NCBI GenBank assembly: GCA_028753945.1
Contig: JAPNXP010000002.1
Coordinates: 4,960,001-5,024,000, forward strand
Direction of reading: 5' to 3'
Length of the DNA stretch: 64,000 nt
Origin: Hexactinellida sp. DTS-2022
Taxonomy: Eukaryota; Porifera; Hexactinellida
Shown: positions 9,633-61,604 of the stretch, piece by piece
How the letters are laid out: each line of letters opens with the position of its first letter
Position numbering within the stretch: position 1 is the stretch's first letter
The notes under the pieces: model-generated
Databases searched by the model: none
The model's input: only the letters and a program-made list of their open reading frames with translations
Told to the model about the DNA's origin: nothing
Translations under genes and position numbers: made by a program

Positions 9633-10650
9633 TAATATTAGTAGGTTTGCAAACCGCATAAATAATATAAAAACTTTTGGTTTACGATCGCAAAAAACAG
9701 AATAATATTTCATGTTTGTCACCAGTAAATAACGAACAATAACATTAGGTTTGCAAACGGAATAAACATTATACAATTACAGTAATACCTCGTTTTACGC
9801 GGTTTTTTTTACGCGTTTTAGTTTTACGCGGAACAATTTTTTATTACCAAAACTTTTTTACGCGATCCTCAACTCGTTTTACGGGGTTTATCTATGATTT
9901 TCATACAATTAATTCTCTTTTTTATGGAAATTTCGAAAAATTTTAAGATTTAGTGGTAACAAAGCGGTTCTACATTTCCAAAAGAACAAAAATGATGATG
10001 TAGAGATAGTAGATAGTTAGGGATATGTATTTGTCGTATAGTAAGTTCATCCAAATATATTATTGGTCAAATGAATACATATTTGCTTCACTATTCACTC
10101 TAGAGATACCCGGTTGTGGGAGGTACCCGAAGGTGTAGGGTTGCGGTGTGAAGGGAATTTTATTTCCCTTCACAACACAATTCCCTTTCTGCGGGAATTC
10201 CCAAGTATTCTCACAAGTTGGTTTCTATCAGGATTCCCATAGGTTAAAATAATTTCCATTCAAAACGATATTGGAAATCCTATGGAATTCCCATGGGATT
10301 AACATACACACGGAAACCTTGGCTATCTGAGAGGTCCGGATGTTGGATCTTTAGTGTTTAAACACTAGGTATTTAAAATTTTATTCGATGTTTATAATAT
10401 TTGGATACGCATCTATTGGTTTAATATGTGTTACTATGAGAATGAACCGTTTTTTTTACTCGATTTCGTTTTACGCGGGCTTTTCAAGGAACGCATCTAC
10501 CGCGTGAAAAGAGGGATACCTGTATTTGGGTTAGCAATACAGAATAATATTTTTTGGATTGTAACCAGTATATAAATAATAATATTTTAGGTTTGCAACG
10601 CGTGTAAGCAATATAAATTATTTGATTTAGACATTTGGTGTAGTAGACTA
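9633..10650 (-). repeat. ~105-bp array, reverse copy, interrupted
   Basis: The stretches 9633-9777 and 10525-10650 are reverse complements of the array at 190-1000 (AGGTTTGCAAACCGCATAAA, TTAGGTTTGCAAACG, TTTTAGGTTTGCAACGCG). A MITE at 9780-10522 splits them. Confidence 0.65.
9780..10522 (+). mobile_element. pogo/Tigger-type MITE, copy A
   Basis: Ends CAGTAATACCTCGTTTTACG and, reading inward from the right, CAGGTATCCCTCTTTTCACG, flanked by TA on both sides (9778-9779, 10523-10524). TA target choice and CAG-ACCTCGTTTT termini resemble Tigger/pogo elements. It is 743 bp with no transposase ORF and contains several short GAAGGGAATT palindromes near 10150. It is inserted in the ~105-bp array. Confidence 0.8.
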
Positions 10651-10651
10651 A

Positions 10652-10843
10652 ATTAGAATAATACGTGACCTACGTGGACTGCCAGTAGATCAAATCCTTA
10701 GAGTGGCGGACTGGTCGAATACACAGACCTTCGAAAAGTACTACTGGAGAGATACTGGAACGTCCGCCGCCGGCCGAATATCACGGCATAAGTTGGAGCC
10801 GATCAATGTGTCGCAAGCGGTTGTGACAAGTGTGTATTCCTAG
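10652..10843 (+). pseudogene. tyrosine recombinase C-terminal fragment
   Basis: A 63-codon open frame ends at TAG 10841-10843. It contains RDLRGLPVDQILRVADWSNT followed by QTFEKYYWRD. This pattern (G-x-P-x-x-x-I-L-x-x-A-x-W-S-x-x-x-T-F-x-x-x-Y) is the C-terminal catalytic-tyrosine region of phage-integrase-like recombinases found in DIRS and related elements. The upstream His/Arg box region is missing, as a TAA at 10649 precedes it. The call rests on this one block. Confidence 0.55.
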
Positions 10844-11044
10844 AAATATAATTACTATTTTCCTAGAAATTTCAAGAGGCTCGGAGGTTATTATTGAAGT
10901 CAAAAATGCAATCTAATCAAAATTGATTACAGTTGATATTATATCAAATTTCTAGAGTGTTCGATCGTACACTTCAACCTGAAGAGTTGTGACAAAAGAG
11001 TCAGTATTTTGAAATATAATTTGCATCTAAAAGCTTTTATTTTG

Positions 11045-11160
11045 CAAAATGCAGATCATCAAGTTTGATGGTTGGATCTAAATAAATTGCATCGCCACTA
11101 TACTCAATCTGATTACATTATCTCTACTAACAAATATTTGCTGTTTCGACCTTTCTAGGT
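11045..11160 (-). repeat. partial copy of the ribozyme-bearing repeat
   Basis: On the minus strand it reads CCTAGAAAGGTCGAAACAGC, then GCAAATATTTGTTAGTAGAG and GATAATGTAATCAGATTGAG. It matches 59325-59438 on the plus strand. It starts inside stem II of the hammerhead described there, so it lacks the CTGATGA core and the cleavage site. Confidence 0.7.
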
Positions 11161-15495: not shown

Positions 15496-15757
15496 TGTAG
15501 GGTTTCATTTGGGGGGGTCCCCCCAATTTAGGGAGGGACCCCCCCAAATCAGCTAATTTTCAAATATATTTGGGGGGGTCCCCCCAAATTTGGGGGGACC
15601 CCCCCAAATTAGCCAACTTTCGTTTCACTTGGGGGAATCCCCCCAAATTTGGGGGGGACCCCCCAAGTCTGCGAATTATCAAATTCATTTGGGGGGGACC
15701 CCCCCAAGTTTGGGGGTGACTTCCCCAAATCTATCAATTTTTCCAGTACTTTTGGGA
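15496..15757 (+). repeat. left TIR of G-hairpins
   Basis: Four palindromic blocks of the form TTTGGGGGGGTCCCCCCAA recur about every 65-70 bp. They are separated by non-palindromic spacers such as AGCTAATTTTCAAATATA and TAGCCAACTTTCGTTTCAC. It is nearly identical to the inverse of 22390-22653. Confidence 0.85.
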
Positions 15758-20367: not shown

Positions 20368-20466
20368 AAGATAATGAGATCTAAGGATTGATTTAGGAAA
20401 AGTTTTATACAGTAAGTCAGAAATACACATATTCCTATAGTACGGATATTATATACATGTATTTAA

Positions 20467-20940: not shown

Positions 20941-22051
20941 TACTAATGGATTTACCATACTCTATTACCCTATATTAAGTCAAATTCACAAGTTCTATAA
21001 GCATAGATTGTATTAGAGTGAAAATCATAAACTGGCCTGTTTTTTTTATTCGTTGGTCGGCTGCTTTCCCATCTGTATTATATAGTAGTCTATGGGCAAG
21101 AGTATCAATCTGACAATGGTCAATATTCTCTGGAAGACGATCGGCCGAAGTATGAAAATGAATCGTTGAAACCAACAGACATGTCACAAAAAATAAATAC
21201 CAAGAAATTGAAAACTGACTGTTATAACAGAATTACACAGAAGATTTGTTCAAGCCCATCACATTCAAGTGGCGACAGAGAATTAATCAAGACATATTAC
21301 TCCTGAAAACTAAATTGGAAGATCCACCAGAAATAGTTAAAACAGCATATATAAAGTTAAGAAATTGCTCTCCAAAAATGAAAGTTTCAATTATTCCGGA
21401 TGGAAATTGCCTCTACAGAGCCTTTAGTTGGTGGTTGACTGATACACAGGATTTTCATGGCTTAATTCGGACCAAACTTGTTCAATTTATGGAATCATCT
21501 CCCCAATGTAAAAAATATGTTGATAATAAGACGAATCAATCTATGGAAGAATATCTAACACAAAATAATACTATATTTTCAACCGTATGGGGGAGTGATG
21601 TTGAGATATTTTGTATGGCAAAATGGCTAAAAACAGATGTATTTGTGTACATAAATAATACATGGGACAAATTTTCTTTCAAAGGGTTTAACCCCAAAGT
21701 AGGAAGAAATAATCCAAGCGACCAAGCAATTTATCTTGGAAATGAGGCCTCACATTATGAACCCATAATATCAGTTGTGAGAAAAGAGATGTCAAAGTAG
21801 ATTCTATCATCATTTCATTTAGTTCTAGAGAGTAGAGACAAATCATTCATAATGAGAATCCTTTACAATAATAAATATTCATTCTATGTATGCATTCATT
21901 TCTTTAGCGGTACTGGGATTTATACACAATTTGCACAATTCGTTTGCTTCCACTATCTGGGTTGTTCACATAGAACTTTCAGCCTTTGAGTGGGATAAAT
22001 TTACCTATAATAATGTACATTGACTGATACCAAAGCTTTGATCCTTAGGTA

Positions 22052-22389: not shown

Positions 22390-22653
22390 TCCCAAAAGTA
22401 CTGGAAAAATTGATAGATTTGGGGAAGTCACCCCCAAACTTGGGGGGGTCCCCCCCAAATGAATTTGATAATTCGCAGACTTGGGGGGTCCCCCCCAAAT
22501 TTGGGGGGATCCCCCCAAGTGAAACGAAAGTTGGCTAATTTGGGGGGGTCCCCCCAAATTTGGGGGAACCCCCTAAAAAATATATTTGAAAATTAGCTGA
22601 TTTGGGGGGGTCCCTCCCTAAATTGGGGGGATCCCCCCAAATGAAACCCTACA
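22390..22653 (-). repeat. right TIR of G-hairpins
   Basis: Inverse of 15496-15757 with the same four poly-G/poly-C palindromes. The main difference is one block that reads TTTTTTAGGGGGTTCCCCC on the inverse strand. It ends in ACCCTACA next to the GCTTA duplication. Confidence 0.85.
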
Positions 22654-40283: not shown

Positions 40284-40980
40284 CGAACATCACATTTTCT
40301 CTTCATTTCTCTTTACATATATTATTTCAATTCGATTACACACAAATATACAATACAGCTCAATACTCTGAAGCTGTTTATCTGTCTGAATGCGTGTTAT
40401 TTTTGTTATTATACGCTATACATATTTATATTTGCTTTGACTCGACATGAAGCTTTACTATAGAATGTTGCTACGCATATTTCTTTGATTGGGACGCCAA
40501 GGGCTAACTGTAACGGGCAGTTGGTTATGTTGGGATACGCTAAGCTACTCGTCCTGAGTTCATCTGCAGCGAGAGTTAGAGTACACTAATTTCATAACCA
40601 CAGCCATGTTTCAGATGCTCAATTCAGTATTGGTCGATGACTAACGCTTTATATATTGTCAAATAAAAGTTTGACCTGTGTCTTGAGTTGTTACGACTGA
40701 TGTACTTCTGCTCATCCGAAGCTATCCAGAATGATTCTTGCAATGTACTGACTGCTCTTGAAAGTTGAAAAGGTTACTATTATCTTCGAATCGCATGTAA
40801 GTGTGTAAAAATATGTAATTAATTTCCATATACTTAGGATTGAAATCTATACGGCGTTACCATTTAGCACTTACAATAACATTATATAGAAATTATCCAA
40901 ATTCGTTTGGTTAGTAATCACTATCTTCCACTAATTGTGTTTGTTTTTCGTAAACGTAACACATTTTGAAGTTCCCTTCC

Positions 40981-41015
40981 TATCCTATCCTATCCTATCC
41001 TATCCTATCCTATCC
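40981..41015. repeat. (TATCC)7 microsatellite, mirrored at 53013-53047
   Basis: Seven perfect pentanucleotide units in the left arm, and seven in the right arm as GGATA. Equal copy number in a fast-mutating repeat points to a very young duplication, gene conversion, or assembly mirroring. Confidence 0.9.
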
Positions 41016-43152
41016 GACTCGTCCTGTTAGTGATAACTTATTAATTCACTTATCACCCTGCTATATGACTAATCTAGCTATTGAATACCGCGTCAATATA
41101 CTAGGAATTGTGTGTGAATAGCGTGGCAATTCCAATTAGGATCTACGTATCCAACCATGGTCTGTTTGATCAATTGATGAATCTCATAAGTTAGCAAAAT
41201 TGTTTTGGCATATTTCCTTGAGCTGATAATTCTTCGTAATAATTGCCTGTTACAAGCTATAATGTAACTCAACAGCTCTAATGGCCAGCAAACTCTCTTT
41301 GTGCCAAGCATAGTTTCGAAATTATCTAATTTCAACACATTGACAAATTAGTAATTCAATTGGTTTATCGTCTTCGTTTCACTTAGAAGTGTTTTTACTT
41401 GTTTTTGTATTTAGATAGACTGTTTAGGAGTTTTCATTGGGAGAGAGTCTCTACTTCATTGATCCTCTACCCACTACTGAGTACTCCTTCTCTTACTTTA
41501 CGTACCAGAATGACCAAGCTACCTAGCAACGGACAGTGTTTATACACATAATATATGTCATTGTTTTGTAAATATCTGCTGAATTATTCTATTATATCAA
41601 TTGCAATCAATTGTTATTTCGAACAATACAATATCCTATGTTGCTGGGAACCTAGATGCAAGCTGTGGTGTGCCTCTAAGCTTGTGTCGCGCGCTTCTAG
41701 ATAAACCATTGATCCCGTAATGGGGCCATTTATCTGTTGTAGACATTGCTTATATCAATCAAGAATTGGCAGACAATGAAATGAAGTCAGCCGGATACTT
41801 GTGTGAGAATCATGACACCATAGATCTAAGATTCACGCAGTGTCTCCACTGGATAAGGTTTCAGCCAACCATAGGCTGATGAAGTATATCATATATTAAT
41901 GAATGCTATAGACATCTTGTAGTACTTATTGCATTATTGGATTGGATTATTATCTTGTGATTTGTATTTCATTATTTTTGATTCATATTGAAAATACTCT
42001 TCATTAAAATACTTTCTGTGAAATACATTACAATTACAATAGTTACACATCTAGCCGGGTATTTCATGTTTGAACGTAACTGAGGCTAATATGTATGGAG
42101 AGCCTTTTATGGCCCGGATCAAGTGGCTTTTTGAAAGTTATGTTTGCTAATATATAAATGGAACGAATGCAGCATACATAAACTTTTGTGTGGTTGCGAA
42201 TGCTACCAAATGGCTATTATTATCCCAAATTATTTACTCTCTGTCTCCATTTCTAATCGATCTACTATATGTGTTTGGAATCAGCTACTGAGTGTAAAGC
42301 AGTCTCCCTATAATTTTCGGGGAGCTTACTTCCCAACTCGGACTCTACCTCATATTCTGGAAATGAACATTTCCAAACGCATTTACCCGGAAGTTTAGGT
42401 AAATGAGCATTTTCCGTGGACACCGCCGAAACCCTTATAGGAAATACTGTAAAACTGTTGCCAATAATCTGGCCATATTATATATTCATGTCATATGTAA
42501 TAATAGACAGCACAATGAATTGGTACATGTTACATTCCTCTATCGAAATACATTGTAATACTAATATTCAATAAGATTGATTGGCCTGTCTGCTGGTAAA
42601 TACACAGATATTTCGTGGGTGTTTCGTGCTCGAAGTTGGTCTCTCTCTTTAAAGGTGAGCTTCTTGTGGACCGATCGGAGATTCCTTCCGTATAGCTTCA
42701 CATAATGCTTGTAGGCCTTATATTCCTCCATGCCAAACTCCTCCACCAGGTCTTGGACTGTAGATTGGTGGAACAGCTCCAGATATACTTAATACTTCAC
42801 AGATGGTTGGATATTTCGCACAAGCCAAACCCGCAACCCAAACCAATCAACCCCTTTAGAAATACAATAATACTATCAAAATATAGTATACAGTTACCGT
42901 ATACATCATGTAATAATTTTGTACATTATTATCAAGTTATCATTCAATAATTTCATCCTGGCAAACATTGTAATTTTCATATCATATAATTCAATACAAC
43001 CTACAAGTGGTTTCACACGAGTCATGTATAATATACACAACGAGTACGTACAAGTGGAATCCACTCACAAGTATATATCAACACACGAGTACAAGTATAA
43101 TTAACACACACACATGTATATTTCATCTGGTCAGGTAGGGAGCCCTAAAATA

Positions 43153-45825
43153 CTAGTAGAAATCATAACTTGTTGGATCCGGTTCACTATCACTCTCTGA
43201 CACTATGTCTGGTGGGGAATTCGCCTCGGATTCAGGACAGATGAGTAGATTTTCTTCTCCTCCAGACGTCTTATCTGTGTCAGAGTGGACCATGGGTCGA
43301 TGGGTCATGGGTCATGGGTCAGATGGGTCACATAAATCGATGGGTCAGATGTGTCATGGGTCACGGCTCCGTGACCCATGACCCATGACCCATTTGGAAT
43401 TTCAATGTCATCTTCCTTAAAAATACGTTTCACTCATCATCATCATTATTATTATAACATTGATGTGCATTGATATACTAAACATATTCGACATTGCAAC
43501 AAGTAGGTTTGTTGAGGTATTTAAACCGTTATTCTCTTATTCTGTTATTGTTACATTATAGTATTTAGATATTTAAAATTGTTTGATGGGTCAATGGGTC
43601 ACTCGATGGGTCATGGGTCAATGGGTCAATGGGTCATGGGTCAGAAATGGGATGGGTCAGATGGGTCATGGGTCACCAATGTTGACCCATGGTCCACTCT
43701 GATCTGTGTTATGCAGCAGTAAGAGACGATGCAGGTGTTGTCTGCCGCACTCGTAGCAATATATTTGTTTGCATGCCATACAAGCAGTGCGTTGTGAAGT
43801 TTTACAAGTGCAACATCTTCCTTCATCGCAATTAAACCCTGGTTTCAGATTTTTAATTGGTTGTATTTGGTGCTGAGTGATCATTTCAAGAGACTACATC
43901 GGCAGTATCAGCTTGGCTCCTGGGACGGATGGTGTCTTTACTCGAGACGTATAACTGCCGCAAAGTGATAGAATGACAGATTCCTTGAACCAGGCGAGTG
44001 TATAGCGTTTCTTTTCTGCCTGGTTCCACTCACCCCTAGCATCGATGGCTGCTTTGAAGAGGATCCATGCATTTACAAGGGCAGAATCAAGCACATGAAA
44101 GAATACTTTGAGGTGGCCGCGTTTTGATGTTAGTGAAATGGCATGGTGGCCTACAAGGCGGTCGTGTTTGTCGACTCCTCCCATACGGTGGTTCTGCGCT
44201 TTGAGAATAGGCGGGCTGGCTATAAGTCTCCTGGTGTATTGCTTGTTAGCGTCTCGAATGTTCTTCATACGACATTGGTTGTGTGGTGAATTTGGGATAG
44301 CTGGTAGGTAGTTGGTAATGAAGACGACTTTTTTTATCTTCGGTTCGATACTTCTTATCCATCCAGATGAGTTGACATACAGGTTCTTCCGCATGCAGAT
44401 ATTCATCAGGGCCTTGTCCTTCTCTGGGATGGAAGGTAATGTTAGCCTTGCAGTTGAACCACTTATATGCCCATGTGAGTGGACGCATATTACTGACGAG
44501 ATAATCCAGATCATGGGGTAGTGTGGTGAGCGATGAGGTACCAACCATGCCAGTTTGTCGAGAGCTCAGATAGGCTGCTAAATCGAGGTGAGAGAAGAAT
44601 CTGTCACAATATACGACATGACCTTTATTGAGGTAAGGCTGTGTCAGCTGTAGCACAACATCCCGTCCCCCTACCGATTCAACTGTGCTGCCGAGGTATA
44701 TGTTCTGTGTGAGGGAGTATCCACAACAGGCGCAGCAGATGGCCCAGAGTTTGATGCCATACTTGTGTGGCTTAGCTTTAATGTACTGGCGAAGGACACT
44801 CCTACCATAAAACTTCACCATCATCTCGTCAATGGAGAGTGCTCTAGCCGGTATTAGTAGGGATGCTGAGGTTTTATTCACAGCTGTGAGTAGATTACCG
44901 AGTTTGGCCTCAAAGCGTTGTGCTGTTTTGAGTGTCTGTGGTATTTGATCGTTGTTGGCAAAGTGTAACATAGTAAAGAGCTCTTGGAAACGATCACGGG
45001 TAGTATGGGCTCTGAAATGTGGGAGGTAGAATATCTTCGAATCAGTGAAATAAGTTCGGCGATTTGGCATTTTCACTAGTGAAGTCCACATGAGGAGCCC
45101 GATAAAACAACGAATTTCTTGGTAGGTAGGTTTGTTCCAAGTCAGTTTCTTCAGTTGTTGCCTGCATACTAGCGTTTGTTGGAGAATGTTATTGAATACG
45201 TATGGACGGAATAGTGCATCAAAAAAGTCGATTGGTTCAAAACACTGGAGGAGATGACTAGCCTGTGGTGATAGTGAAGGCTGCTGCGGCGGTGGATTAG
45301 TGTGAAGTGGCTCGATTGGCTCTGGAATAGCCTGCGGCACTTTCTGGAACTTATCCACTGGAATCCTGTCGACACGTAATGCATTCTCATAGGGTTCCTT
45401 ATAGAAGGGCAATGATTCAAGTTGTTGTAGGGATTTTACAGGGTTGCCAGTGTGAAGAGCATGTTGCGAGTCCCATATTCGCGGGTAGAATCGTTCAATG
45501 GGTGTCTGGATCTTGTTCAGAGCTCTTCGATAACTAAGCTTTGCTTGTTGTGACTGTGTTTCACCATTCGCATCTATTGCATAGAAATAGAGATCGGTGC
45601 GTACCAGCCCAGATTGTGATGTATAGTTCAGATCGGGAGTAAAGATGTTCCGTTTCTCCCATTCTTTTGATGATGATTTATTTCCAAAGTAATTAGGAAG
45701 CTGTTCCCTTGGGTCCAGTTTAGGCCGGTAAAGGTCGGGTGGTGGTGTTGGTGGTAGGGTGGTAGGATCACTGTTTGCATCACCGATGTAAGTGATATAT
45801 GTAAAGGGTTTCGTTTGTTTGGAAA
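43153..45825 (-). pseudogene. piggyBac transposase, left-arm copy, N-terminus missing
   Basis: Mirror of the right-arm gene from residues FTYITYIGDAN onward. It contains ALSIDEMMVKFYGR and VVYCDRFFSHLDL (first two catalytic Asp) in one frame, then HRMGGVDKHDRLVG (third) in the next frame. It has the same A7-run frame break (44329-44335), the same TAG after GAKLILPM, and the same MITE in the Cys-rich tail. The inverted-repeat breakpoint removes the acidic N-terminal region. The ATG at 45835 (MTHIS) lies outside the repeat and is fortuitous. Confidence 0.9.
43281..43701 (-). mobile_element. hAT-type minisatellite MITE, left-arm copy
   Basis: Mirror of 50327-50747. Ends CAGAGTGGACCATGGGTC, flanked by the 8-bp duplication ATCTGTGT (43273-43280, 43702-43709). 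The interior is GGGTCAT minisatellite around an AT-rich centre. Confidence 0.85.
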
Positions 45826-47779
45826 TGTGCGTCATGGTTTCTGAGGCTCCCCTGTCCCCCCTTTCCCCCTATTATGGTTGTCTTTCAGATAGGCCCATAG
45901 TTTGTCCAGTAGTTTTGCGCTGTATTGCCCTCTTCTCATATGAACTGGCATTGAGAGACTCAGGCAGCAAAACCAAGTGTGGCTATGAATTACATTAGGC
46001 ACGGGGCTTTACTTAACCGACAATTGGTGACTATCCTTTTGTAGCTTGTCGTGGTTCATTTATCTGAATTAAACTTGTATATAAGTTCGGTTGAGATGGT
46101 CTTTTCTTTGTCTAATGTATCGACTTATTATATCCAGGCATCCTTTATGTATAAAGCATATAGCGGCAGATTGACTACAGCAGAAAAAGCTGATTTCTTC
46201 GATTGGTAGTTTCTCAATATAGGTGTGTATTTTTGGTTTGGTTGAGTTAGTGTCCTAATGGAATGTGTATCTCTAGAATTCGTGTCACTTGACGTCAACT
46301 TGGAAGATTCTTCCTCATCCTTCTAATTATAGAAGCAACTGTATAACTATGTATAGAGCTAATTAGTGTGTGTCTAAGTATAGACTTATCAGATGTTTTC
46401 CGGGTAACTTGAGCTAATTTGTGTCATATTAAAGGTCACACGTGTTTTAGTTCGAGGATTATGATATTTGCATTCCTTTAGTCTTGATTCGTTACTAACT
46501 TGCTACTGGTGGCCTCTTAGTTCCGCTTCCGTTGTTGTAAACGTGGTGTATAAGCAAACATTGTGGGCGTCTATCCTCAAATTATCGACGCTTGCGCGAG
46601 AATTTCTTCTGACGTTTACAATCAACTGTCACCCATTAGTACATTTTGAATTCATGTCTATTTATAAATCAACACATTCGATTTGTTCTGGAGTTAGCTT
46701 AATTTACGTTACAGCTGCATTATCCACAATTTCCGGCTAACTTAAATACATGCAAACTCTGCAAAGTGTTGCAATTTGTCTAAGAAAATTGCTTTAGCTA
46801 ATTATTTGACCTGTAGAACCCTCCTTTTCAACTTCGTCTAAATAAATTACTTAGATATATCATTTCCATTAGAAACGTGCTGGAGACTCCTGCACTCAAT
46901 TTACCCATGTACAATGTGTACCATGACAACTACATGAAGTCTCGAGATACGCTTGGCCATCACCTGTAGACTTGTAGCACCGCATCACTCAAAAACTTAT
47001 CTAATTACTATGTCCCACTATAATATTATTGTCCTAGAGTAATATCATTTTTAATTAGTAGTGTAATTAGATCACAGTCTGATTACGCTGATAACGTAAC
47101 ACCTATAGATGCAGTAGTATCCTATGTTATTTTTCTCATCGTCAGGTGTAGCTGGACTTAGAGCACAACGAACAACGAACGACAATGACGGCCATTGTTC
47201 AGATTAGAATGTTCCAGAATTCTTGTATTCCTGATTATGTTGCTGTTAGAGTTCTGTATGTGTTGTATTGGGGGAATTGGTCTAAATTTGCTGAGTTTCA
47301 CTATAATTATCGTTGTATTATATTATTTGTAATTCGTTTAACCTTTACCGCATCTAGTTGGAGTAAACTGTTATCAGGGTTATATTTATGAACACGCCAT
47401 ACGCATCGAGGCGTATATAACTGACTGTCGAGGGAAGATTATTAAGTGATAATTATGTAACTTACTCATACTTGAATACAATTTAATTCATCTTGCTCTG
47501 TAAAGTTTAAAGAATTCTCGAAAGGTTAATACAAATCTGTGCACAACAATTGAAAACGTCTTGTGAACTAATTTTAAGAAAAGGTCAAACCACTAGTGCA
47601 CAGTTTGTACTAATTTGAGCATAATGTGACATGTGACACCTTTTCTTTCAGTTAGTATATAATATAAGGGCACTGGTGAAGCAGCTCATATAACTATTCC
47701 AACGCCAACTCAAGCTAGATATTTACTTGGAAAGTTTATTCCCTCGCAAATTGAAGCAATTCATGGAAAATAGATCAGA
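45826..47779. other. spacer between inverted-repeat arms
   Basis: Unique sequence that does not fold on itself, AT-rich, without a supported gene. A pyrimidine-rich stretch with CTTTCAG lies near 45880. The last ~420 bp before the right arm hold the piggyBac N-terminal coding region. Confidence 0.6.
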
Positions 47780-50700
47780 ACAGCCAACACATTCAATTGG
47801 GAGCTGGAAGCTGAGGAAGCGATCAGGGATGATGTCCCACTTCTATCCATCTCTTACATACAAGATGTATACCAATCAAATGACGAATTCCTCTCTGAAG
47901 ATGAGGAAGATACTGATTTGTATGGCATTCTCACAACACCCCTCACGCCTAGCACACACGACATATCTACAACGGACATACCCCTTCCCAGTCTTGCGAC
48001 GCAATTAGCAGATGTCTTCCAGCCGGAATTGCAGATACAGTCTCCAGCAACACCATCTACAGAGCCAGATACAGGCAACTTTCCCCAAAAGTTTATCTTT
48101 CCTCCACCACTAGAGGTCTCTACCCAGCATGCTAAGGGAAAGCGATAATCTACTCCACCCACATTGAGAGAAGTAAAACGGGTTCCCGGAACTACAACCC
48201 ATTTTCCAAACAAACGCAACCCTTTACATATATCACTTACATCGGTGATGCAAACAGTGATCCTACCACCCTACCACCAACACCACCACCCGACCTTTAC
48301 CGGCCTAAACTGGACCCAAGGGAACAGCTTCCTAATTACTTTGGAAATAAATCATCATCAAAAGAATGGGAGAAACGGAACATCTTTACTCCCGATCTGA
48401 ACTATACATCACAATCTGGGCTGGTACGCACCGATCTCTATTTCTATGCAATAGATGCGAATGGTGAAACACAGTCACAACAAGCAAAGCTTAGTTATCG
48501 AAGAGCTCTGAACAAGATCCAGACACCCATTGAACGATTCTACCCGCGAATATGGGACTCGCAACATGCTCTTCACACTGGCAACCCTGTAAAATCCCTA
48601 CAACAACTTGAATCATTGCCCTTCTATAAGGAACCCTATGAGAATGCATTACGTGTCGACAGGATTCCAGTGGATAAGTTCCAGAAAGTGCCGCAGGCTA
48701 TTCCAGAGCCAATCGAGCCACTTCACACTAATCCACCGCCGCAGCAGCCTTCACTATCACCACAGGCTAGTCATCTCCTCCAGTGTTTTGAACCAATCGA
48801 CTTTTTTGATGCACTATTCCGTCCATACGTATTCAATAACATTCTCCAACAAACGCTAGTATGCAGGCAACAACTGAAGAAACTGACTTGGAACAAACCT
48901 ACCTACCAAGAAATTCGTTGTTTTATCGGGCTCCTCATGTGGACTTCACTAGTGAAAATGCCAAATCGCCGAACTTATTTCACTGATTCGAAGATATTCT
49001 ACCTCCCACATTTCAGAGCCCATACTACCCGTGATCGTTTCCAAGAGCTCTTTACTATGTTACACTTTGCCAACAACGATCAAATACCACAGACACTCAA
49101 AACAGCACAACGCTTTGAGGCCAAACTCGGTAATCTACTCACAGCTGTGAATAAAACCTCAGCATCCCTACTAATACCGGCTAGAGCACTCTCCATTGAC
49201 GAGATGATGGTGAAGTTTTATGGTAGGAGTGTCCTTCGCCAGTACATTAAAGCTAAGCCACACAAGTATGGCATCAAACTCTGGGCCATCTGCTGCGCCT
49301 GTTGTGGATACTCCCTCACACAGAACATATACCTCGGCAGCACAGTTGAATCGGTAGGGGGACGGGATGTTGTGCTACAGCTGACACAGCCTTACCTCAA
49401 TAAAGGTCATGTCGTATATTGTGACAGATTCTTCTCTCACCTCGATTTAGCAGCCTATCTGAGCTCTCGACAAACTGGCATGGTTGGTACCTCATCGCTC
49501 ACCACACTACCCCATGATCTGGATTATCTCGTCAGTAATATGCGTCCACTCACATGGGCATATAAGTGGTTCAACTGCAAGGCTAACATTACCTTCCATC
49601 CCAGAGAAGGACAAGGCCCTGATGAATATCTGCATGCGGAAGAACCTGTATGTCAACTCATCTGGATGGATAAGAAGTATCGAACCGAAGATAAAAAAAG
49701 TCGTCTTCATTACCAACTACCTACCAGCTATCCCAAATTCACCACACAACCAATGTCGTATGAAGAACATTCGAGACGCTAACAAGCAATACACCAGGAG
49801 ACTTATAGCCAGCCCGCCTATTCTCAAAGCGCAGAACCACCGTATGGGAGGAGTCGACAAACACGACCGCCTTGTAGGCCACCATGCCATTTCACTAACA
49901 TCAAAACGCGGCCACCTCAAAGTATTCTTTCATGTGCTTGATTCTGCCCTTGTAAATGCATGGATCCTCTTCAAAGCAGCCATCGATGCTAGGGGTGAGT
50001 GGAACCAGGCAGAAAAGAAACGCTATACACTCGCCTGGTTCAAGGAATCTGTCATTCTATCACTTTGCGGCAGTTATACGTCTCGAGTAAAGACACCATC
50101 CGTCCCAGGAGCCAAGCTGATACTGCCGATGTAGTCTCTTGAAATGATCACTCAGCACCAAATACAACCAATTAAAAATCTGAAACCAGGGTTTAATTGC
50201 GATGAAGGAAGATGTTGCACTTGTAAAACTTCACAACGCACTGCTTGTATGGCATGCAAACAAATATATTGCTACGAGTGCGGCAGACAACACCTGCATC
50301 GTCTCTTACTGCTGCATAACACAGATCAGAGTGGACCATGGGTCAACATTGGTGACCCATGACCCATCTGACCCATCCCATTTCTGACCCATGACCCATT
50401 GACCCATTGACCCATGACCCATCGAGTGACCCATTGACCCATCAAACAATTTTAAATATCTAAATACTATAATGTAACAATAACAGAATAAGAGAATAAC
50501 GGTTTAAATACCTCAACAAACCTACTTGTTGCAATGTCGAATATGTTTAGTATATCAATGCACATCAATGTTATAATAATAATGATGATGATGAGTGAAA
50601 CGTATTTTTAAGGAAGATGACATTGAAATTCCAAATGGGTCATGGGTCATGGGTCACGGAGCCGTGACCCATGACACATCTGACCCATCGATTTATGTGA

Positions 50701-50875
50701 CCCATCTGACCCATGACCCATGACCCATCGACCCATGGTCCACTCTGACACAGATAAGACGTCTGGAGGAGAAGAAAATCTACTCATCTGTCCTGAATCC
50801 GAGGCGAATTCCCCACCAGACATAGTGTCAGAGAGTGATAGTGAACCGGATCCAACAAGTTATGATTTCTACTAG
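47780..50875 (+). pseudogene. piggyBac transposase, right-arm (parental) copy
   Basis: An acidic N-terminal region at 47780-48148 (WELEAEEAIRDD, SNDEFLSEDEEDTDLYGIL) is followed by a frame change before 48203. The core at 48203-49692 includes ALSIDEMMVKFYGR and VVYCDRFFSHLDL. One extra base in the A7 run at 49693-49699 moves the frame to the C-terminal part with HRMGGVDKHDRLVG. Thus all three catalytic Asp of the DDD family are present. TAG at 50132-50134 interrupts PM-SLE. After it comes a Cys/His-rich domain (CCTCKTSQRTACMACKQIYC then YECGRQHLH), the terminal zinc finger of piggyBac proteins. A MITE of 421 bp plus an 8-bp duplication (429 bp, 143 codons) splits this tail. The reading then resumes in frame to an acidic end (SESDSEPDP) and TAG at 50873. 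Inactive as written. Confidence 0.9.
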
Positions 50876-53800
50876 TATTTTAGGGCTCCCTACCTGACCA
50901 GATGAAATATACATGTGTGTGTGTTAATTATACTTGTACTCGTGTGTTGATATATACTTGTGAGTGGATTCCACTTGTACGTACTCGTTGTGTATATTAT
51001 ACATGACTCGTGTGAAACCACTTGTAGGTTGTATTGAATTATATGATATGAAAATTACAATGTTTGCCAGGATGAAATTATTGAATGATAACTTGATAAT
51101 AATGTACAAAATTATTACATGATGTATACGGTAACTGTATACTATATTTTGATAGTATTATTGTATTTCTAAAGGGGTTGATTGGTTTGGGTTGCGGGTT
51201 TGGCTTGTGCGAAATATCCAACCATCTGTGAAGTATTAAGTATATCTGGAGCTGTTCCACCAATCTACAGTCCAAGACCTGGTGGAGGAGTTTGGCATGG
51301 AGGAATATAAGGCCTACAAGCATTATGTGAAGCTATACGGAAGGAATCTCCGATCGGTCCACAAGAAGCTCACCTTTAAAGAGAGAGACCAACTTCGAGC
51401 ACGAAACACCCACGAAATATCTGTGTATTTACCAGCAGACAGGCCAATCAATCTTATTGAATATTAGTATTACAATGTATTTCGATAGAGGAATGTAACA
51501 TGTACCAATTCATTGTGCTGTCTATTATTACATATGACATGAATATATAATATGGCCAGATTATTGGCAACAGTTTTACAGTATTTCCTATAAGGGTTTC
51601 GGCGGTGTCCACGGAAAATGCTCATTTACCTAAACTTCCGGGTAAATGCGTTTGGAAATGTTCATTTCCAGAATATGAGGTAGAGTCCGAGTTGGGAAGT
51701 AAGCTCCCCGAAAATTATAGGGAGACTGCTTTACACTCAGTAGCTGATTCCAAACACATATAGTAGATCGATTAGAAATGGAGACAGAGAGTAAATAATT
51801 TGGGATAATAATAGCCATTTGGTAGCATTCGCAACCACACAAAAGTTTATGTATGCTGCATTCGTTCCATTTATATATTAGCAAACATAACTTTCAAAAA
51901 GCCACTTGATCCGGGCCATAAAAGGCTCTCCATACATATTAGCCTCAGTTACGTTCAAACATGAAATACCCGGCTAGATGTGTAACTATTGTAATTGTAA
52001 TGTATTTCACAGAAAGTATTTTAATGAAGAGTATTTTCAATATGAATCAAAAATAATGAAATACAAATCACAAGATAATAATCCAATCCAATAATGCAAT
52101 AAGTACTACAAGATGTCTATAGCATTCATTAATATATGATATACTTCATCAGCCTATGGTTGGCTGAAACCTTATCCAGTGGAGACACTGCGTGAATCTT
52201 AGATCTATGGTGTCATGATTCTCACACAAGTATCCGGCTGACTTCATTTCATTGTCTGCCAATTCTTGATTGATATAAGCAATGTCTACAACAGATAAAT
52301 GGCCCCATTACGGGATCAATGGTTTATCTAGAAGCGCGCGACACAAGCTTAGAGGCACACCACAGCTTGCATCTAGGTTCCCAGCAACATAGGATATTGT
52401 ATTGTTCGAAATAACAATTGATTGCAATTGATATAATAGAATAATTCAGCAGATATTTACAAAACAATGACATATATTATGTGTATAAACACTGTCCGTT
52501 GCTAGGTAGCTTGGTCATTCTGGTACGTAAAGTAAGAGAAGGAGTACTCAGTAGTGGGTAGAGGATCAATGAAGTAGAGACTCTCTCCCAATGAAAACTC
52601 CTAAACAGTCTATCTAAATACAAAAACAAGTAAAAACACTTCTAAGTGAAACGAAGACGATAAACCAATTGAATTACTAATTTGTCAATGTGTTGAAATT
52701 AGATAATTTCGAAACTATGCTTGGCACAAAGAGAGTTTGCTGGCCATTAGAGCTGTTGAGTTACATTATAGCTTGTAACAGGCAATTATTACGAAGAATT
52801 ATCAGCTCAAGGAAATATGCCAAAACAATTTTGCTAACTTATGAGATTCATCAATTGATCAAACAGACCATGGTTGGATACGTAGATCCTAATTGGAATT
52901 GCCACGCTATTCACACACAATTCCTAGTATATTGACGCGGTATTCAATAGCTAGATTAGTCATATAGCAGGGTGATAAGTGAATTAATAAGTTATCACTA
53001 ACAGGACGAGTCGGATAGGATAGGATAGGATAGGATAGGATAGGATAGGAAGGGAACTTCAAAATGTGTTACGTTTACGAAAAACAAACACAATTAGTGG
53101 AAGATAGTGATTACTAACCAAACGAATTTGGATAATTTCTATATAATGTTATTGTAAGTGCTAAATGGTAACGCCGTATAGATTTCAATCCTAAGTATAT
53201 GGAAATTAATTACATATTTTTACACACTTACATGCGATTCGAAGATAATAGTAACCTTTTCAACTTTCAAGAGCAGTCAGTACATTGCAAGAATCATTCT
53301 GGATAGCTTCGGATGAGCAGAAGTACATCAGTCGTAACAACTCAAGACACAGGTCAAACTTTTATTTGACAATATATAAAGCGTTAGTCATCGACCAATA
53401 CTGAATTGAGCATCTGAAACATGGCTGTGGTTATGAAATTAGTGTACTCTAACTCTCGCTGCAGATGAACTCAGGACGAGTAGCTTAGCGTATCCCAACA
53501 TAACCAACTGCCCGTTACAGTTAGCCCTTGGCGTCCCAATCAAAGAAATATGCGTAGCAACATTCTATAGTAAAGCTTCATGTCGAGTCAAAGCAAATAT
53601 AAATATGTATAGCGTATAATAACAAAAATAACACGCATTCAGACAGATAAACAGCTTCAGAGTATTGAGCTGTATTGTATATTTGTGTGTAATCGAATTG
53701 AAATAATATATGTAAAGAGAAATGAAGAGAAAATGTGATGTTCGGTGGGTTCCAACCAGAGGTTTATCCAGCATTTTATTGGCCGGCACTTTATCATGGA

Positions 53801-56049: not shown

Positions 56050-57053
56050 GATCATTATAAAAACTAACATATGCTCTAAGTGCCTCAATTTACACTCAGG
56101 ACAAGGCCAACATTCGGAGGAGTGTGGTTAACATACGAATCGTAACAATAATATATCATTAGCGAGAGCACAATCAAAATAATCATAACTCACCAACACA
56201 CGTGCCCAGTTGGATGATAAACTGTCAGAGGTGTCACCTGCCAAGATTGATTGCTGAGGTACATGCTCCCACACGGTTGAGAGACATGAATGAGACACAT
56301 TTGCAAACCACAGTCAATGTAATGACAGCAAATTAGACACAGCCAGGTTCTTTATCCCGTCAAGCGGCTACGCTTTGTCAAGCAGCTCTCGTCTACGGTG
56401 GCACACCCTCCGATCAGGACTGGATCCGTCACCCAACATTCATCGCATATCTAATTGGCACCCATATACTCGGGGGAAATAGACACACAAAGTTATATGC
56501 ATTCTAATATCAGACTGATACTGTTACCAAATGGTAACATTCCTAGGGAGGATGGTACCGGATGTGTGCCTCTGTATAGTAGGCTGATGCAATGTAGTGA
56601 CAGCAGAAATAGCATAAAGTGTGATACGAACCTAAACTTGTCAGGAATAGACTTACTCCCCAACTACTATAACCTGTTACGGCGCAAACAGGTCACCTGT
56701 GTCAATACTATAGGTGACAATCATAATTATTCGAATTGGGAGTACAATTACACCACAAAAGAGATACTATCTCACAAGGCTCACAAGGTGCTCTACAAAC
56801 AGAAATCTAACTCTCATATACACGGGCAAATACAAAATTTATACTCATTTCGCCATTTTGGGACCAAAAACGAACAAGAGTATTGATAACACGGTTGAGG
56901 CTTACCATATACAGATGTTCACATTAGCGCGTGCCAATAAACGTATTTTACGATCATCTATATGAATCTGAATTGTGAACGTGCAGAATTTTCGAACGAG
57001 CCATCTATAAGAGTGTTCCCAAGTGAAATGGATGACTTCGCTTTAGCAATATA
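56050..57053 (+). pseudogene. decayed unrecognised coding region
   Basis: Several coding-like frame segments lie head to tail. They are LSASIYTQDKANIRRSVVNI, WMINCQRCHLPRLIAEVHAP, ALVYGGTPSDQDWIRHPTFI, then a 143-codon ORF (RLILLPNGNIPREDGTGCVP), then DNTVEAYHIQMFTLARANKR. They are separated by two TAG codons and frame changes. Amino-acid composition is balanced despite the AT-rich setting. I do not recognise the family, and chance openness cannot be excluded for the outer pieces. Confidence 0.35.
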
Positions 57054-57763
57054 GCTGAAAAAAATGTATGTACATTGTCAATTGACTGGTTCGCTATATT
57101 TCCAAACCCCCAAAGCAAAATGAGTTGTCTAATACCAATCATTATATATGTACAAGTATAACATAGCAAGATTACCAGGATAAAAACTAAGGGCTAACAA
57201 TTGCACATTGCTAAAAGCACATAAAAGAGTATTATGAACAAATATGTAAACAGAGTAAATATTACATAATTGATAGTTTAGTTCCAGTCAGTTAGAAGAT
57301 CTTGCGTGGGGATTGAGATATCATATATACAAGTCCCGAATAAGGAGGACTAAAGTGGAATTTCACAATTACGAAATTGAGATGAATTGTATGACAAAAC
57401 GCTAGTAGAGATAATAGATTTGCTCATCAAAGCTCGTGGCGAGGGTATATAGTGGGCATAGAAGGCAGATGGATGGAGGGATGAGCGCCCTATTAGAGTT
57501 GCGAGAAATAAACTTGAGAGAGAAGGGTCTGGGTTGAGATTTATAAGCAGGGGGTAGAGCAAGACCAGGACTAATGTAGTGGCCCATCAGTTTACATAAT
57601 CAACAGTGGGAACACCCCGGTAGACAGGGCAATGTCCTCCACTCAAGGATGAGCAGATTTATAAATCAAATAGAGTCGGGAAGCGATACAAAAGATACAC
57701 ATTTCGCCAATAGGGGACAAAAACTATCTCTAGCTTTGAACGCTGAGTGAATGGTTCTAAGAG
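57054..57763. other. no gene seen
   Basis: Unassigned. Minus-strand ORFs at 57350-57590 overlap each other and show no recognisable motif. Confidence 0.3.
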
Positions 57764-58011
57764 GAGGTATAGTGTCAGTCAGGTTGGGTTATAAACTCTC
57801 GATATAGCTCTTGTGGTACAAGGACTTGGCCGGAAACCAGACAGGGTGAGGTACACGAGCATCTAACATGAGTAATCAGTGTTTATAGAGGTATACTGTC
57901 AGTCAGGTTGGGTTAGAAGCACGCGATAAAGTCCCTGTGCAATAGCACTTGGCCGCAAAGCGAGACAGGAGTGATACACCAGCACCTAAAATTAGCAATA
58001 AATGCAACGTA
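57764..58011 (+). repeat. 124-bp tandem duplication
   Basis: Two diverged units begin GAGGTATAGTGTCAGTCAGG and GAGGTATACTGTCAGTCAGG, 124 bp apart. Both carry CACTTGGCCG/GGACTTGGCCGG and CGAGACAGG-type phrases. Confidence 0.7.
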
Positions 58012-58149
58012 GAGGTAGAGAAACAAAATTTGAGATGAGTTAAAAATCTTGTAATACCAATGGCATTTCTACGTGAAATAAATTTTAACACCTGTGGCAC
58101 TTATAGTTTTAGCTGGAGAGCCGTCACGAAGAAAGAACAAATAAACAAT

Positions 58150-58440
58150 ATCTAACAAGGGCAGTGAGTTTAGAACTGTGCCACTAAGTATAGTCGGCCC
58201 CAGGGGTTGGATCTTGGGGGGGGGGGGGGGTGCGGGGGGGTGCAAACCCCCCCCCTAAATTTATACTATTCGAAAATTTCATTCTCTTTTTGTATTGTAG
58301 TCCTATTTTGTTGGCCGAGAATATTTAATGAAAAATCTCATCCAAAATTTGCACCCCCCCAAACTACACCCATCCAAAATTTGCACTCCCCCAAATTTTG
58401 TGGCTAGACCACCCCTGTTCGGCGCAGTGAAAACCCATTG
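58150..58440. other. G/C-tract repeat, probable element
   Basis: Long G and C runs (58218-58232 and 58248-58254) are followed by repeated CATCCAAAATTTGCAC and CCCCCAAA phrases. The left edge has GTGCCACTAAGTATAGTCGG, which recalls the palindromic modules at 8219 and 9583. The ends are not resolved. Confidence 0.4.
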
Positions 58441-58843
58441 TTACCAAGGAATGTTATCAGAACCTCAGAGGAAGGAGTAATTGTCAATAAGAGTCATAGG
58501 ATCAACAAATTTGAATTGAGAAATGTTTCTGAACAATGAGTTGAATAAGATAGCAATGCTTGACAGAGATAGAAGGAAGTAAAGTCCCAAACCAGATATA
58601 TAAAAACTAATTATGGCCTAGAATAGAAAATATGTAAGTAGTAACATAGATATAAAACATTCAGAAAAAGCGTTTATCGTGCTCAATGGAATATTATTAT
58701 GATAAAATAGAATGGTGATGGAATTTGAACTCCTTACTCGTTTATAATGATTATCAAATCACGTGTTATCACGTGTTGAGACTCACATTGACTAGTATTC
58801 GGCAATATATATAATCAAGCCGACTAGAAAATTCCTAAACACT

Positions 58844-59200
58844 ATGCAAGCGCATATAATTGATCTGCAGCGACTAGTCAGGCTGACTAATAATTCAGAC
58901 ACACTAAGGGTGCTCCATGATGCCATCACTGCGGCTAAAGCTCAGTCCCGCGTTGAGGCCCGACAGAGGAGAAGAGCCATCCGAGAACAGGCCCGTCAAA
59001 TACGGCGTCAGAATACTTCGCGGCTCCAGAATAAGCATAGTCGTGTGGTCTGGCGAAATATCAACGACATGCGGGTAGAATCCCAGACCTCCATCCATCT
59101 CTTGCCTGGAATCGGCACCCAGGACACCAGGGAAGGGTACCTGGACGCCCACTGGAAGGCGCAGCGCCAACATCCGGACGTGAGTTCAACTGTTGTCTAG
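58844..59200 (+). CDS. basic 118-codon ORF, unrecognised
   Basis: Starts MQAHIIDLQRLVRLTNNSDT, then a long Arg/Gln-rich helix (RQRRRAIREQARQIRRQN) and VVWRNINDMRVESQTSIHLL, YLDAHWKAQRQHP. The W-x-x-I-N-x-x-R and later D-x-x-W pattern faintly recalls the region before reverse transcriptase in retroelements, but I cannot confirm that. It ends ~90 bases upstream of a hammerhead motif on the same strand, so the two probably belong to one element. Confidence 0.45.
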   Translation: MQAHIIDLQRLVRLTNNSDTLRVLHDAITAAKAQSRVEARQRRRAIREQARQIRRQNTSRLQNKHSRVVWRNINDMRVESQTSIHLLPGIGTQDTREGYLDAHWKAQRQHPDVSSTVV

Positions 59201-59221
59201 TATATGTGTTAGTTACTTGTG

Positions 59222-59271
59222 GTGTAGTATTCACTATAACGGATTTCGATCTCGACCTCAGAATACTACAC
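59222..59271 (+). repeat. 11-bp hairpin upstream of the ribozyme
   Basis: GTGTAGTATTC pairs perfectly with GAATACTACAC across 28 bases, 19 bases before stem III of the hammerhead. Confidence 0.75.
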
Positions 59272-59289
59272 AATGTTTGTGTTGTAAAG

Positions 59290-59345
59290 TGCTGTCCGGT
59301 GTTGTTACTACACTGCTGATGAGACCTAGAAAGGTCGAAACAGCA
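59290..59345 (+). ncRNA. hammerhead ribozyme motif, stem III open
   Basis: All parts are present in order. Stem III 5' strand TGCTGT (59290-59295), then C17 at 59296, giving a GUC triplet. Stem I CGGTGT/ACACTG (59297-59302, 59310-59315) with a 7-base loop. Core CTGATGA (59316-59322). Stem II GACCT/AGGTC with loop AGAA (59323-59336). GAAA (59337-59340). Stem III 3' strand ACAGCA (59340-59345). Pairs 1.1-2.1, 10.1-11.1 and A15.1-U16.1 are correct. Self-cleavage would be expected after 59296. Such ribozymes occur in Penelope-like elements and retrozymes. The open-stem-III (type III) layout is more usual in plants than in animals. Another repeat copy (11045-11160) lacks the 5' half. Confidence 0.8.
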
Positions 59346-59534
59346 AATATTTGTTATTAGAGATAATGTAATCAGATTGAGTATAGCGTCCATGCAATTT
59401 ATTTAGGTGCAACCATCAAGCTTGATGATGTGCAAAGTCGCTATATAAATTTTTTAGTGTGTCCGGGATAACTTGTATCTGACCGAAAAATATAATCAAA
59501 ATTTTGAACGGCTAACTCAATAAATATTATGATT

Positions 59535-59830
59535 TACTGGGGGGGGGGGGGGCGTGGGGGTACCTGATCGAATAAACACAATACTATTCGAATAGGTACC
59601 CGTAGATAATGTATTGAGGGTTTTGCTGATCGTATAAATGTTATAATATTATTATTCCAGGTAACCGGTATACGTATGTGAATTATATATATATATATAT
59701 ATAGGGATTAGCTGATCGTGTAAATGTTATAATATTAATATTCTGCCAGGTTACCCGTAATTATATAGAGGGTTTGGCTGATCGCATAAATATTATAATA
59801 TTATTCGACCAGGTAACCGGTGAAATAGCA
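59535..59830 (+). repeat. poly-G run and ~95-bp degenerate tandem repeats
   Basis: A run of about 13 G at 59539-59552 precedes three or four units of GCTGATCGTATAAATGTTAT, AATATTATTATTCC, AGGTAACCGGT. An (AT)n tract lies near 59690. No ORF. Confidence 0.65.
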
Positions 59831-60121
59831 ATATATAACATTGTGTTAGCTAACCGTGAAATCATGGACAAAATACAAGTAGTTAACCAACAATGAATGT
59901 CGTCTCACAAGTTAGCTAAACGTGTATCGAGTGAAATACCTTAGTTACCATGAAAATTCGTCATCCAAAATAAGGAGAAATTCCTTGATTAGAAGCCAAA
60001 AATATCATCGCCAATTCAAACAAGAATAATCAGAATAAAAGTAGTTATAAATATCACAAAAATATTTTAGAAACCATTATCAGAATGAATGAAAGGATAT
60101 ATAGGAATATATAATCTAGAG

Positions 60122-60226
60122 CAATTTTTCTCAGCGTACCCCTGGCTATTTTTTAACATTACGCGTGCCCCCATGAGAAGCCTCGCGTACCCCTAGGGTA
60201 CGCGTACCCCAGTTTGAAGACCACTG
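60122..60226. mobile_element. hAT-type MITE, 105 bp
   Basis: Right end inverted reads CAGTGGTCTTCAAACTGGGG. The left end is a mutated match, CAATTTTTCTCAGCGTACCC. Flanked by the exact 8-bp duplication ATCTAGAG (60114-60121, 60227-60234). Internal GCGTACCCC phrases are repeated. Confidence 0.8.
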
Positions 60227-60234
60227 ATCTAGAG

Positions 60235-61140
60235 TAAATTATTCAGAATTATCATACTAAATCCAAATAAGGTGGACATGAAAGGCCTTAGAGCCAAGTG
60301 AATTTTATAGAAATAGAAACAAAAATTGTATTTTCTTACAGATCAGAACACGTACAATAAGAATGCAACTTATATAAAATTTTGTAACTAAATTTTTTCG
60401 AGGGCACAAGCGAAAATTTAAACCATGGATGATATAAAAGGGGGGTTATGAACCAAGGATCACAATGGAGAGATTCAAAAATCAAAATAATACGTTCAGA
60501 CTTTTCCTATTATTGGGAAATATATATATCTGAATTGCATGATATAATCACCAAACAAACATTGAGCGACGTTCTATATATTCATTCAAAAAAATATTAT
60601 AAAAGTGAATTATTCACTGAATTAAGGGGGTTTCCGTTTTCACAAGTTTTACCTTATAATTGGATTAGTTTGTTGATAAAAATATTCATACGGGTGAAAA
60701 TCCAAATAGAAGATATATATAAATATATGTGCCAATTAACTAAACCCAATTATTTATAACATAAAAGTTATAGCGAGTTTAATATTCCACATATTTCTCA
60801 AAAATATGGCGGGCCGTGTACGGTTAATATATTGCTGTAGCTTCAGTTGTATGCGTCAGAATTGTTTGAAATATGTTTTTCAAAAATGTAATATTATGGC
60901 TCAACATGATGTAGTTACAAAGTAAGACTAACTTCCTATATTCTTAGCATACTTCGTTTCAAAGAAAAATTGTTTGTCACCATTTTTAGACAAAATACTG
61001 AGCAAAATATTTTAAATCTTTTTTAATGTTGACAAAATATGACTGTATTGATGACTTTTGATTATAAAAGTTCATTCTTTTTATTCAAAAGAATTGTAGT
61101 TAATTAGAATTCATGAAAAAGCTTTCCGCAGTATTCAGTT
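60235..61140. other. no gene seen
   Basis: Very AT-rich. The 103-codon ORF at 60448-60759 consists mainly of Ile/Lys/Tyr codons and shows no motif, so I do not support it. Confidence 0.4.
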
Positions 61141-61604
61141 AAAGATTATAACCCGACGGAGTTGGTAGACGGTATACATTTTTGAATTATGACTCCAAAA
61201 TTTTCTTTTGCACATTTTATCAAATATCGCATGAAAGATGACCTTTTTATTAATTTTTTGAGTTCAAAAGGTCGCCATCTTTTTTATTTGGGTCAAATAA
61301 AAATTCTAAACCGGAACCAACCGCCCATAACGATAATCAATGTGATAAATCACAGATAACATGATTTTAGCATATAATAATCTTGAAACCCACAAACTAA
61401 TCAGGTTGTTTAGGAAGAATTCCCCCTATGTAACCTTTGTATTAGCGTAAGACAGCACGCCCCATAAATCGAGGTTATAGATGATAATTTGATTTCGTTT
61501 TCAGTTTGGATCTATCTATAATTGCTTCTATCATATTTATAAATGAAACAACTAAGTTGAAAACGAAATTTATGTGTTTTTGCCAGAAACTGCCGTATTT
61601 AATC
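61141..61604 (-). mobile_element. truncated reverse copy of the TTAA MITE
   Basis: On the minus strand it begins TTAAGATTAAATACGGCAG and carries the same internal order as 14049-15453 (GAAAACGAAATC, GTTATGGGCGGTTGGT, GGTAGACGG). TTAA is at 61605-61608. The opposite end is missing. Confidence 0.75.

Follow-up and report, generated by a model that had tools for sequence, protein, structure and literature searches.

A type III hammerhead ribozyme in a protein-coding repeat of a glass sponge genome, and LTR-bearing carriers of other type III hammerheads in the same genome

What is a hammerhead ribozyme with an open stem III doing beside a small basic open reading frame in the genome of a sponge? 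Metazoan retrozymes are described as carrying type I hammerheads and having no long terminal repeats (LTRs), primer sites or polypurine tracts. LTR retrozymes with type III ribozymes are placed in plants, and type III forms in general mostly in plants and subviral agents, so far as the excerpts of PMC7229834 and PMC7761336 go. The claim of the earlier note on this DNA, that a type III form is unusual for an animal, agrees with these descriptions. Type III hammerheads are nonetheless not unheard of in animals, since there is a hint of elements bearing them in bacteria or insects (PMC7761336, in part) and long-helix forms occur in dipterans and termites (PMC7936874, in part). The DNA considered here, called the window, is the whole stretch of 64,000 nucleotides at C11:4960001-5024000 of Hexactinellida sp. 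DTS-2022, and it was compared with the rest of the genome (112.4 Mb in 18 contigs). A homeodomain search of this genome gave 16 matches, the best of them Msx-like (PDB 1ig7, E 2e-24), which marks the host as an animal; a search for Wnt was empty here and in every control. For the glass sponge Oopsacas minuta, one Msx, 20 homeodomain proteins and no Wnt are reported, a set that the host resembles.

The hammerhead of the window

Read letter by letter, positions 59290-59345 of the plus strand make up a complete type III hammerhead, with all invariant core bases, an NUH cleavage site and three stems. It is assigned to type III because stem III is the open one.

59290..59345, plus strand: type III hammerhead ribozyme, predicted to cleave after 59296 (C17); from sequence, Rfam, folding and copies
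59290-59295 with 59340-59345, plus strand: stem III, TGCTGT/ACAGCA, 6 bp; from the letters
59296 (C17), plus strand: cleavage triplet GTC (GUC site); from the letters
59297..59315, plus strand: stem I, CGGTGT/ACACTG, 6 bp (59297-59302 with 59310-59315), and 7-nt loop I; from letters and folding
59316-59322, plus strand: core CTGATGA; from the letters
59323..59336, plus strand: stem II, GACC(T)/(A)GGTC, 4-5 bp (59323-59327 with 59332-59336), and loop II; from letters and folding
59337-59340, plus strand: core GAAA; from the letters

Both the minimum free energy and the centroid folds recover the three stems (z -2.15, with 6 of 200 shuffles equally or more stable). The stability of the 281-nt stretch around the ribozyme does not clearly exceed that of shuffles (z -0.58, with 51 of 200 equally stable). 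The covariance-model search suggested by the earlier note gave a mixed return: the Rfam model Hammerhead_3 (RF00008) matches 59289-59346 at 44.2 bits (E 8.7e-8 in 2.5 kb, 2.2e-6 in 64 kb), below its gathering score of 48.5 bits. A scan of the window at curated thresholds therefore lists nothing, and one at weak thresholds is needed to see the match; every other locus of the same repeat that was scanned likewise misses the curated score. The remaining weak-threshold Rfam matches of the window lie in GC-palindromic repeats or simple sequence and were taken as chance.

A pattern made of the core and stem II finds 59290-59345 and nothing else on either strand of the window. With all three stems added to the core, no match occurred on the minus strand of the window or in any of 300 windows simulated by an order-1 Markov model (one strand each). 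A looser pattern of the core alone matched five times in the window, against 3.93 expected, which is not significant in 64 kb, and so it is the stems that matter. The claim of a complete type III hammerhead with open stem III is thus sustained by the letters, the folds, the Rfam score and the simulations, and, as far as sequence can tell, the hammerhead is genuine. It resembles the canonical type III form (RF00008) in core, topology and stem lengths, and differs in its score, its animal host and its place within a protein-coding repeat. Its 7-nt loop I and 4-nt loop II are those of most type III forms in the part of PMC7936874 available.

The repeat, its copies and its conservation

The ribozyme lies in a repeat, here called element A, whose parts in the window are as follows.

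58051..59620, plus strand: element A, approximate extent common to separate loci (left limit about 58051 or 58180, right limit about 59450-59620); from comparison of copies
58199..58418, no strand assigned: stretch of about 220 bp that L041, L043 and L045 lack, interpreted as an insertion into the window copy; from comparison of copies
58806..58814, plus strand: TATATATAA, TATA-box-like, of putative function, in all nine aligned copies; from letters and alignment
58844..59200, plus strand: ORF of 118 amino acids, basic, coding in the ancestor of the copies; from dS/dN
59180..59185, plus strand: GTGAGT, candidate splice donor that ends the conserved coding stretch and would make the ribozyme intronic; in 6 of 9 copies
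59181..59460, plus strand: conserved non-coding stretch containing the ribozyme, each 40-nt bin sharing 27-40 positions with L042; from bin identity
59222..59271, plus strand: inverted repeat GTGTAGTATTC/GAATACTACAC immediately upstream of the ribozyme; from letters and alignment
59519..59524, plus strand: AATAAA, candidate polyadenylation signal of the window subfamily; from the letters
10634..11160, minus strand: second copy of element A in the same window, 5'-truncated and of another subfamily, beginning inside ribozyme stem II

The 221 bases around the ribozyme have 11 matches in the genome, and a pattern joining the core to the 3' arm of stem III has eight, against none for the reversed pattern. 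Eight of the nine aligned copies of element A carry the ribozyme; L047 has unrelated sequence in its place. Five of the eight are identical over the ribozyme. In L039 a G.U pair of stem I has become A-U, the sole change of this kind among the aligned copies, while L041 has GUU instead of GUC and L045 has one pair of stem II broken by a U.U mismatch. The earlier note had held that homologous copies lacking compensatory changes would speak against the ribozyme; what the copies show is stems kept, with one such change and one broken pair. Each locus has a single ribozyme, whether the 64 kb of the window are considered or the up to 10 kb of the seven other ribozyme-bearing loci.

The nine copies are not independent insertions, because several share one larger repeat. 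Over kilobases the window, L039 and L040 match one another at about 97%, and they share with L043 and L045 this larger repeat, in which the 3' end of a DDE_Tnp_1_7 transposase (presumably of piggyBac type) is found. It is the element A unit, or parts of it, that is common to L041 (C6), L042, L044 (C1) and L047, L044 sharing also some sequence to the right. L042 and the copy at 10634-11160 represent a second subfamily, with more than 500 nt of further shared sequence beyond the ribozyme, and L047, its ribozyme lost, is another member of the L042 subfamily. The libraries searched gave no family match to element A. The suggestion of an undescribed element is helped by this lack of a known family; around the window copy neither an LTR nor a second ribozyme was found. 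Element A appears to be new, as a coding repeat that carries a type III hammerhead.

The window holds other mobile sequences. The stretch from 40978 to 53050 resembles a large palindrome, in which a DDE_Tnp_1_7 transposase ORF occurs in inverted copies (44246-45835, minus; 48616-49782, plus), and there are THAP and P-element-type transposase ORFs at 19462-20430 and 18020-19447 (minus). An OTU protease-like ORF occupies 21246-21800 and an ORF with a Pif1 2B domain 6304-6855 (both by Pfam). Tandem palindromic 59-bp repeats (TTTGGGGGG..CCCCCCAAA) at 15504-15731 and 22416-22645 give weak, sub-threshold Rfam matches to microRNAs.

The stop codon of the ORF precedes the ribozyme by about 90 nt. Comparison of the window ORF with L042 gives dS 1.16 and dN 0.34, and with L047 dS 1.11 and dN 0.31; the other two frames offer no such contrast. 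Since dS far exceeds dN in one frame only, the ORF was a gene in the common ancestor of the copies, and the claim that the ribozyme adjoins a small basic ORF therefore holds. Eleven protein matches to the ORF were found in the genome. Six reach the last residue, four of these with an internal stop, and the other five are open and partial, so the unit may be dying. The ORF has no Pfam family at E 0.001 (a sub-threshold PEHE match stands at E 0.04), no sequence match in the PDB at E 1 and no relative in the viral contigs searched. Penelope-like elements encode a reverse transcriptase with a GIY-YIG domain and bear minimal type I hammerheads, from which the type III ribozyme of element A differs; the Pfam scan covered 11 ORFs of the window. 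The viral contigs contain two hammerhead-like matches.

In bins of 40 nt the window matches L042 at 16-33 positions per bin along the ORF (58861-59180). The two bins of 59261-59340 have 39 and 40 identical positions (79 of 80 together), and by 59421-59460 the count is down to 27. In this comparison no part of element A is better conserved than the ribozyme, which is unchanged even though synonymous sites approach saturation. Selection on the ribozyme would be the simplest reading of its identity between the subfamilies, and recombination or gene conversion of a shared 3' part could also account for it. Identity falls smoothly on both sides of the ribozyme, a pattern compatible with either.

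What the ribozyme may do for the repeat

I put at roughly 0.6 the probability that the type III hammerhead functions as a component of element A, the latter being a dispersed, multi-copy unit of a TATA-like box, a basic protein gene and a ribozyme. Its most likely action would be to cut the element's own transcript downstream of the ORF. Element A would be transcribed, the RNA would fold, and it would cleave itself after 59296, parting the ORF-bearing 5' RNA, with its 2',3'-cyclic phosphate end, from the part downstream. The cut would fall in the 3' untranslated region, or within an intron if the GTGAGT at 59180 is used. The cleavage, presumed here as is the transcription, would serve the element's own spread or expression.

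If that donor is used regularly, the ORF would be the first exon of a multi-copy gene, and cleavage in the first intron would compete with splicing or tune it, as conserved intronic hammerheads of amniotes are reportedly proposed to do. Element A would resemble the latter in its putative intron placement and differs from them as a type III form; a role of amniote intronic hammerheads in mRNA biogenesis is mentioned in the part of PMC7229834 at hand. GTGAGT does stand at the end of the stretch under coding constraint and is kept in six of nine copies (L042 has GTGAAT, and the stretch is deleted in L043 and L045). Candidate acceptors exist too: past the ribozyme, L042 and the copy at 10634-11160 have ctcttcag, a pyrimidine-rich run, and the window has TTTTTTAG at 59450-59457. 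They differ between the two subfamilies, however, the second exon is putative, and the ORF has an in-frame stop of its own at 59198-59200. I regard an intronic ribozyme as unlikely, though worth keeping in view. The ribozyme might also be a passenger, a fragment of a retrozyme captured long ago and conserved through gene conversion alone, its copies lying mostly on one contig. C11 does hold eight of the 12 ORF-region matches and five of the eight core matches, and the window, L039, L040, L043 and L045 sit in the one larger repeat with the transposase fragment. Against this, the sequence of the ribozyme is unlike those of the LTR families read, and the conserved stretch, at about 240 nt, is wider than a hammerhead, which leaves a passenger improbable.

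Two further explanations would have element A pass through a circular RNA. As a relative of retrozymes it would give a multimeric RNA, and a unit cut out at two ribozymes would be closed into a circle and turned back into DNA. The same genome does contain LTR retrozymes of type III, and conservation peaks at the ribozyme, as noted; the kinship is nevertheless improbable to a still greater degree, for there is one ribozyme per locus in eight loci, none in L047, and no LTR, primer site, polypurine tract or direct repeat was seen around the ribozyme. In particular, window positions 56500-61500 contain no direct repeat pair enclosing it, and inspection by eye of the limits of the copies, which are approximate, gave no primer site, polypurine tract or 4-bp duplication. 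For want of the paired ribozymes, an LTR retrozyme was rejected as a description of element A. Element A, in which the search for an LTR, a second ribozyme and a known protein domain came back empty, is therefore not classed as a retrozyme, and without a second ribozyme or an LTR around the window copy there is no sign that it makes a circle itself. Of the tandem or LTR-like copies that the earlier note had thought worth seeking, none was seen at element A; LTR-like carriers of type III hammerheads belonging to other families turned up elsewhere in the genome.

The order of a small basic ORF followed by a hammerhead on the same strand would also suit a genomic copy of a delta-like agent with circular RNA. 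In toads and termites such agents have type III hammerheads after the antigen gene, the same order of gene and ribozyme (PMC7936874, in part). According to the same portion of that paper such agents have the long form of hammerhead, whereas helices I and II of element A are of ordinary geometry, and element A lacks their second ribozyme, rod fold and antigen. No hammerhead was found on the opposite strand, and 891 nt do not fold into a rod (z -1.91, with 1 of 20 shuffles equally stable). Pfam includes a delta antigen family, and at E up to 10 the ORF returned only the weak PEHE match (filters drop most matches above E 0.1). The lack of a second ribozyme and of a rod fold already goes most of the way to refuting a delta-like origin, there is no antigen match besides, and the idea is hardly credible. 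Cleavage of its own message by element A remains the reading I prefer.

Comparison with metazoan non-LTR retrozymes leads to the same separation. These are likewise hammerhead-bearing repeats of animal genomes, in the available excerpt of PMC7229834, but their ribozymes are of type I and their units are tandem repeats of 150-450 bp, whereas element A has a single type III ribozyme.

Type III hammerheads and their LTR carriers elsewhere in the genome

A pattern of the type III core has 374 matches in the genome against none for the reversed pattern, a count that concerns the core only and of which the first places, those listed, are all on C1. The RF00008 profile search scored 68 of 12,319 candidates, 64 of them over the curated score, against none in 14 control genomes, which may not be animals; the count for this genome is a lower bound, because element A's own ribozyme is absent from the list. 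A search of the genome for type I hammerheads gave no match, and it was silent everywhere, controls included.

Loci fetched from these searches yielded 35 distinct hammerheads with all three stems and three without. Among the 35 the stems covary: on average 3.97 of 4 positions pair in stem II and 5.54 of 6 in stem III, while the best of 1000 shuffles of partners reached 3.69 and 4.89. The figure for stem II is the cleaner one, since the parser, which required a paired stem I, favoured pairing in stem III.

The carriers were examined in 35 loci (the 30 best places of the RF00008 search and five from the pattern list), with 41 ribozyme units. A right end, TCATNNCA, is recognisable in 30 of the 41. 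Thirteen of those 30 also have, 231-328 bp to the left, a TGT start with the matching 4-bp duplication, and 17 have no such duplication; shifted controls gave a mean of 0.65 duplications and a maximum of 2 over 40 shifts. Chance may account for one or two of the 13. An LTR-like unit of 328 bp has 51 matches in the genome (40 of 391 candidates scored).

Two loci contain both LTRs. L071 (C15:3147950-3148880) has two of 330 bp, identical at 329 of 330 positions, with TG..CA ends, a non-coding interior of 174 bp that closes with a polypurine tract, and a TACT duplication. L070 (C1:7627650-7628600) has two of 325 bp, identical at 324 of 325, with TG..CA ends, a non-coding interior of 161 bp and a polypurine tract; it has no target duplication, and a third LTR, inverted, follows the second. 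The near identity of the LTRs in each suggests recent movement. Successive ribozymes lie about 486 nt apart in L070 and about 504 nt apart in L071. At the position of the primer site, L070 (398-447) and L071 (minus strand, after the first LTR) have a perfect 15-bp hairpin formed with the LTR end, the letters differing between the two. Such a hairpin could be self-priming, which would explain the inverted pairs of LTRs (3' end of L070; L026/L027). Other carriers have TGGTGCATTGGCCGGGAA, which I take to be the complement of the 3' end of tRNA-Gly. It has seven matches in the genome and none in the control, all of them, by eye, 1-2 nt after an LTR end ..ACA, and all in L075, L079, L082, L083 and L084. 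None of these five loci is a clean two-LTR element: in L079 the first LTR is truncated and the ribozyme incomplete, and in L075 and L084 pieces of a second LTR are inverted. Interiors of the LTR families measure 73 (L075), 111 (L079), 161 (L070) and 174 (L071).

By the arrangement of their parts, then, many of the type III hammerheads read (L009-L038, L070 and L071 being sampled) sit in what look like miniature LTR retrozymes of the plant style. According to the excerpts of PMC4918200 and PMC7761336, plant LTR retrozymes share a type III ribozyme with element A, L070 and L071, and share two LTRs, TG..CA ends, a polypurine tract and a non-coding interior with L070 and L071, and with L071 also a 4-bp duplication; these LTR hallmarks were not seen in element A. 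The LTR families here differ from those of plants in their animal host, their shorter interiors and their primer site, which in the plant elements is that of tRNA-Met and here is TGGTGCATTGGCCGGGAA or a hairpin (same excerpts). They differ as well from metazoan retrozymes, described in part of PMC7229834 as having no LTR, primer site or polypurine tract, since they have all three. LTR retrozymes in a sponge or any other animal were not found in the literature at the level of titles and abstracts, a scope that excludes subscription papers and preprints.

This population of LTR retrozymes is a larger surprise than element A itself. An animal with hundreds of type III cores, a sampled part of them in LTR elements, breaks the division between plants and animals drawn in the excerpts of PMC7229834 and PMC7761336, and a coding repeat that keeps a type III ribozyme against a synonymous divergence above 1 adds to the break. 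It can now be tested whether LTR retrozymes go back to early eukaryotes, had two origins or spread by horizontal transfer, and element A offers a natural example of a protein gene linked to a hammerhead. The two might even be connected, through a radiation of plant-style LTR retrozymes, primed by tRNA or by their own hairpin, of which element A would be an offshoot whose retrozyme-type ribozyme processes the message of a basic protein that aids its spread; I consider this combined history decidedly doubtful.

Two more type III hammerheads, at L074 and L078 and with no obvious LTR, lie in AT-rich sequence and have GUA cleavage sites.
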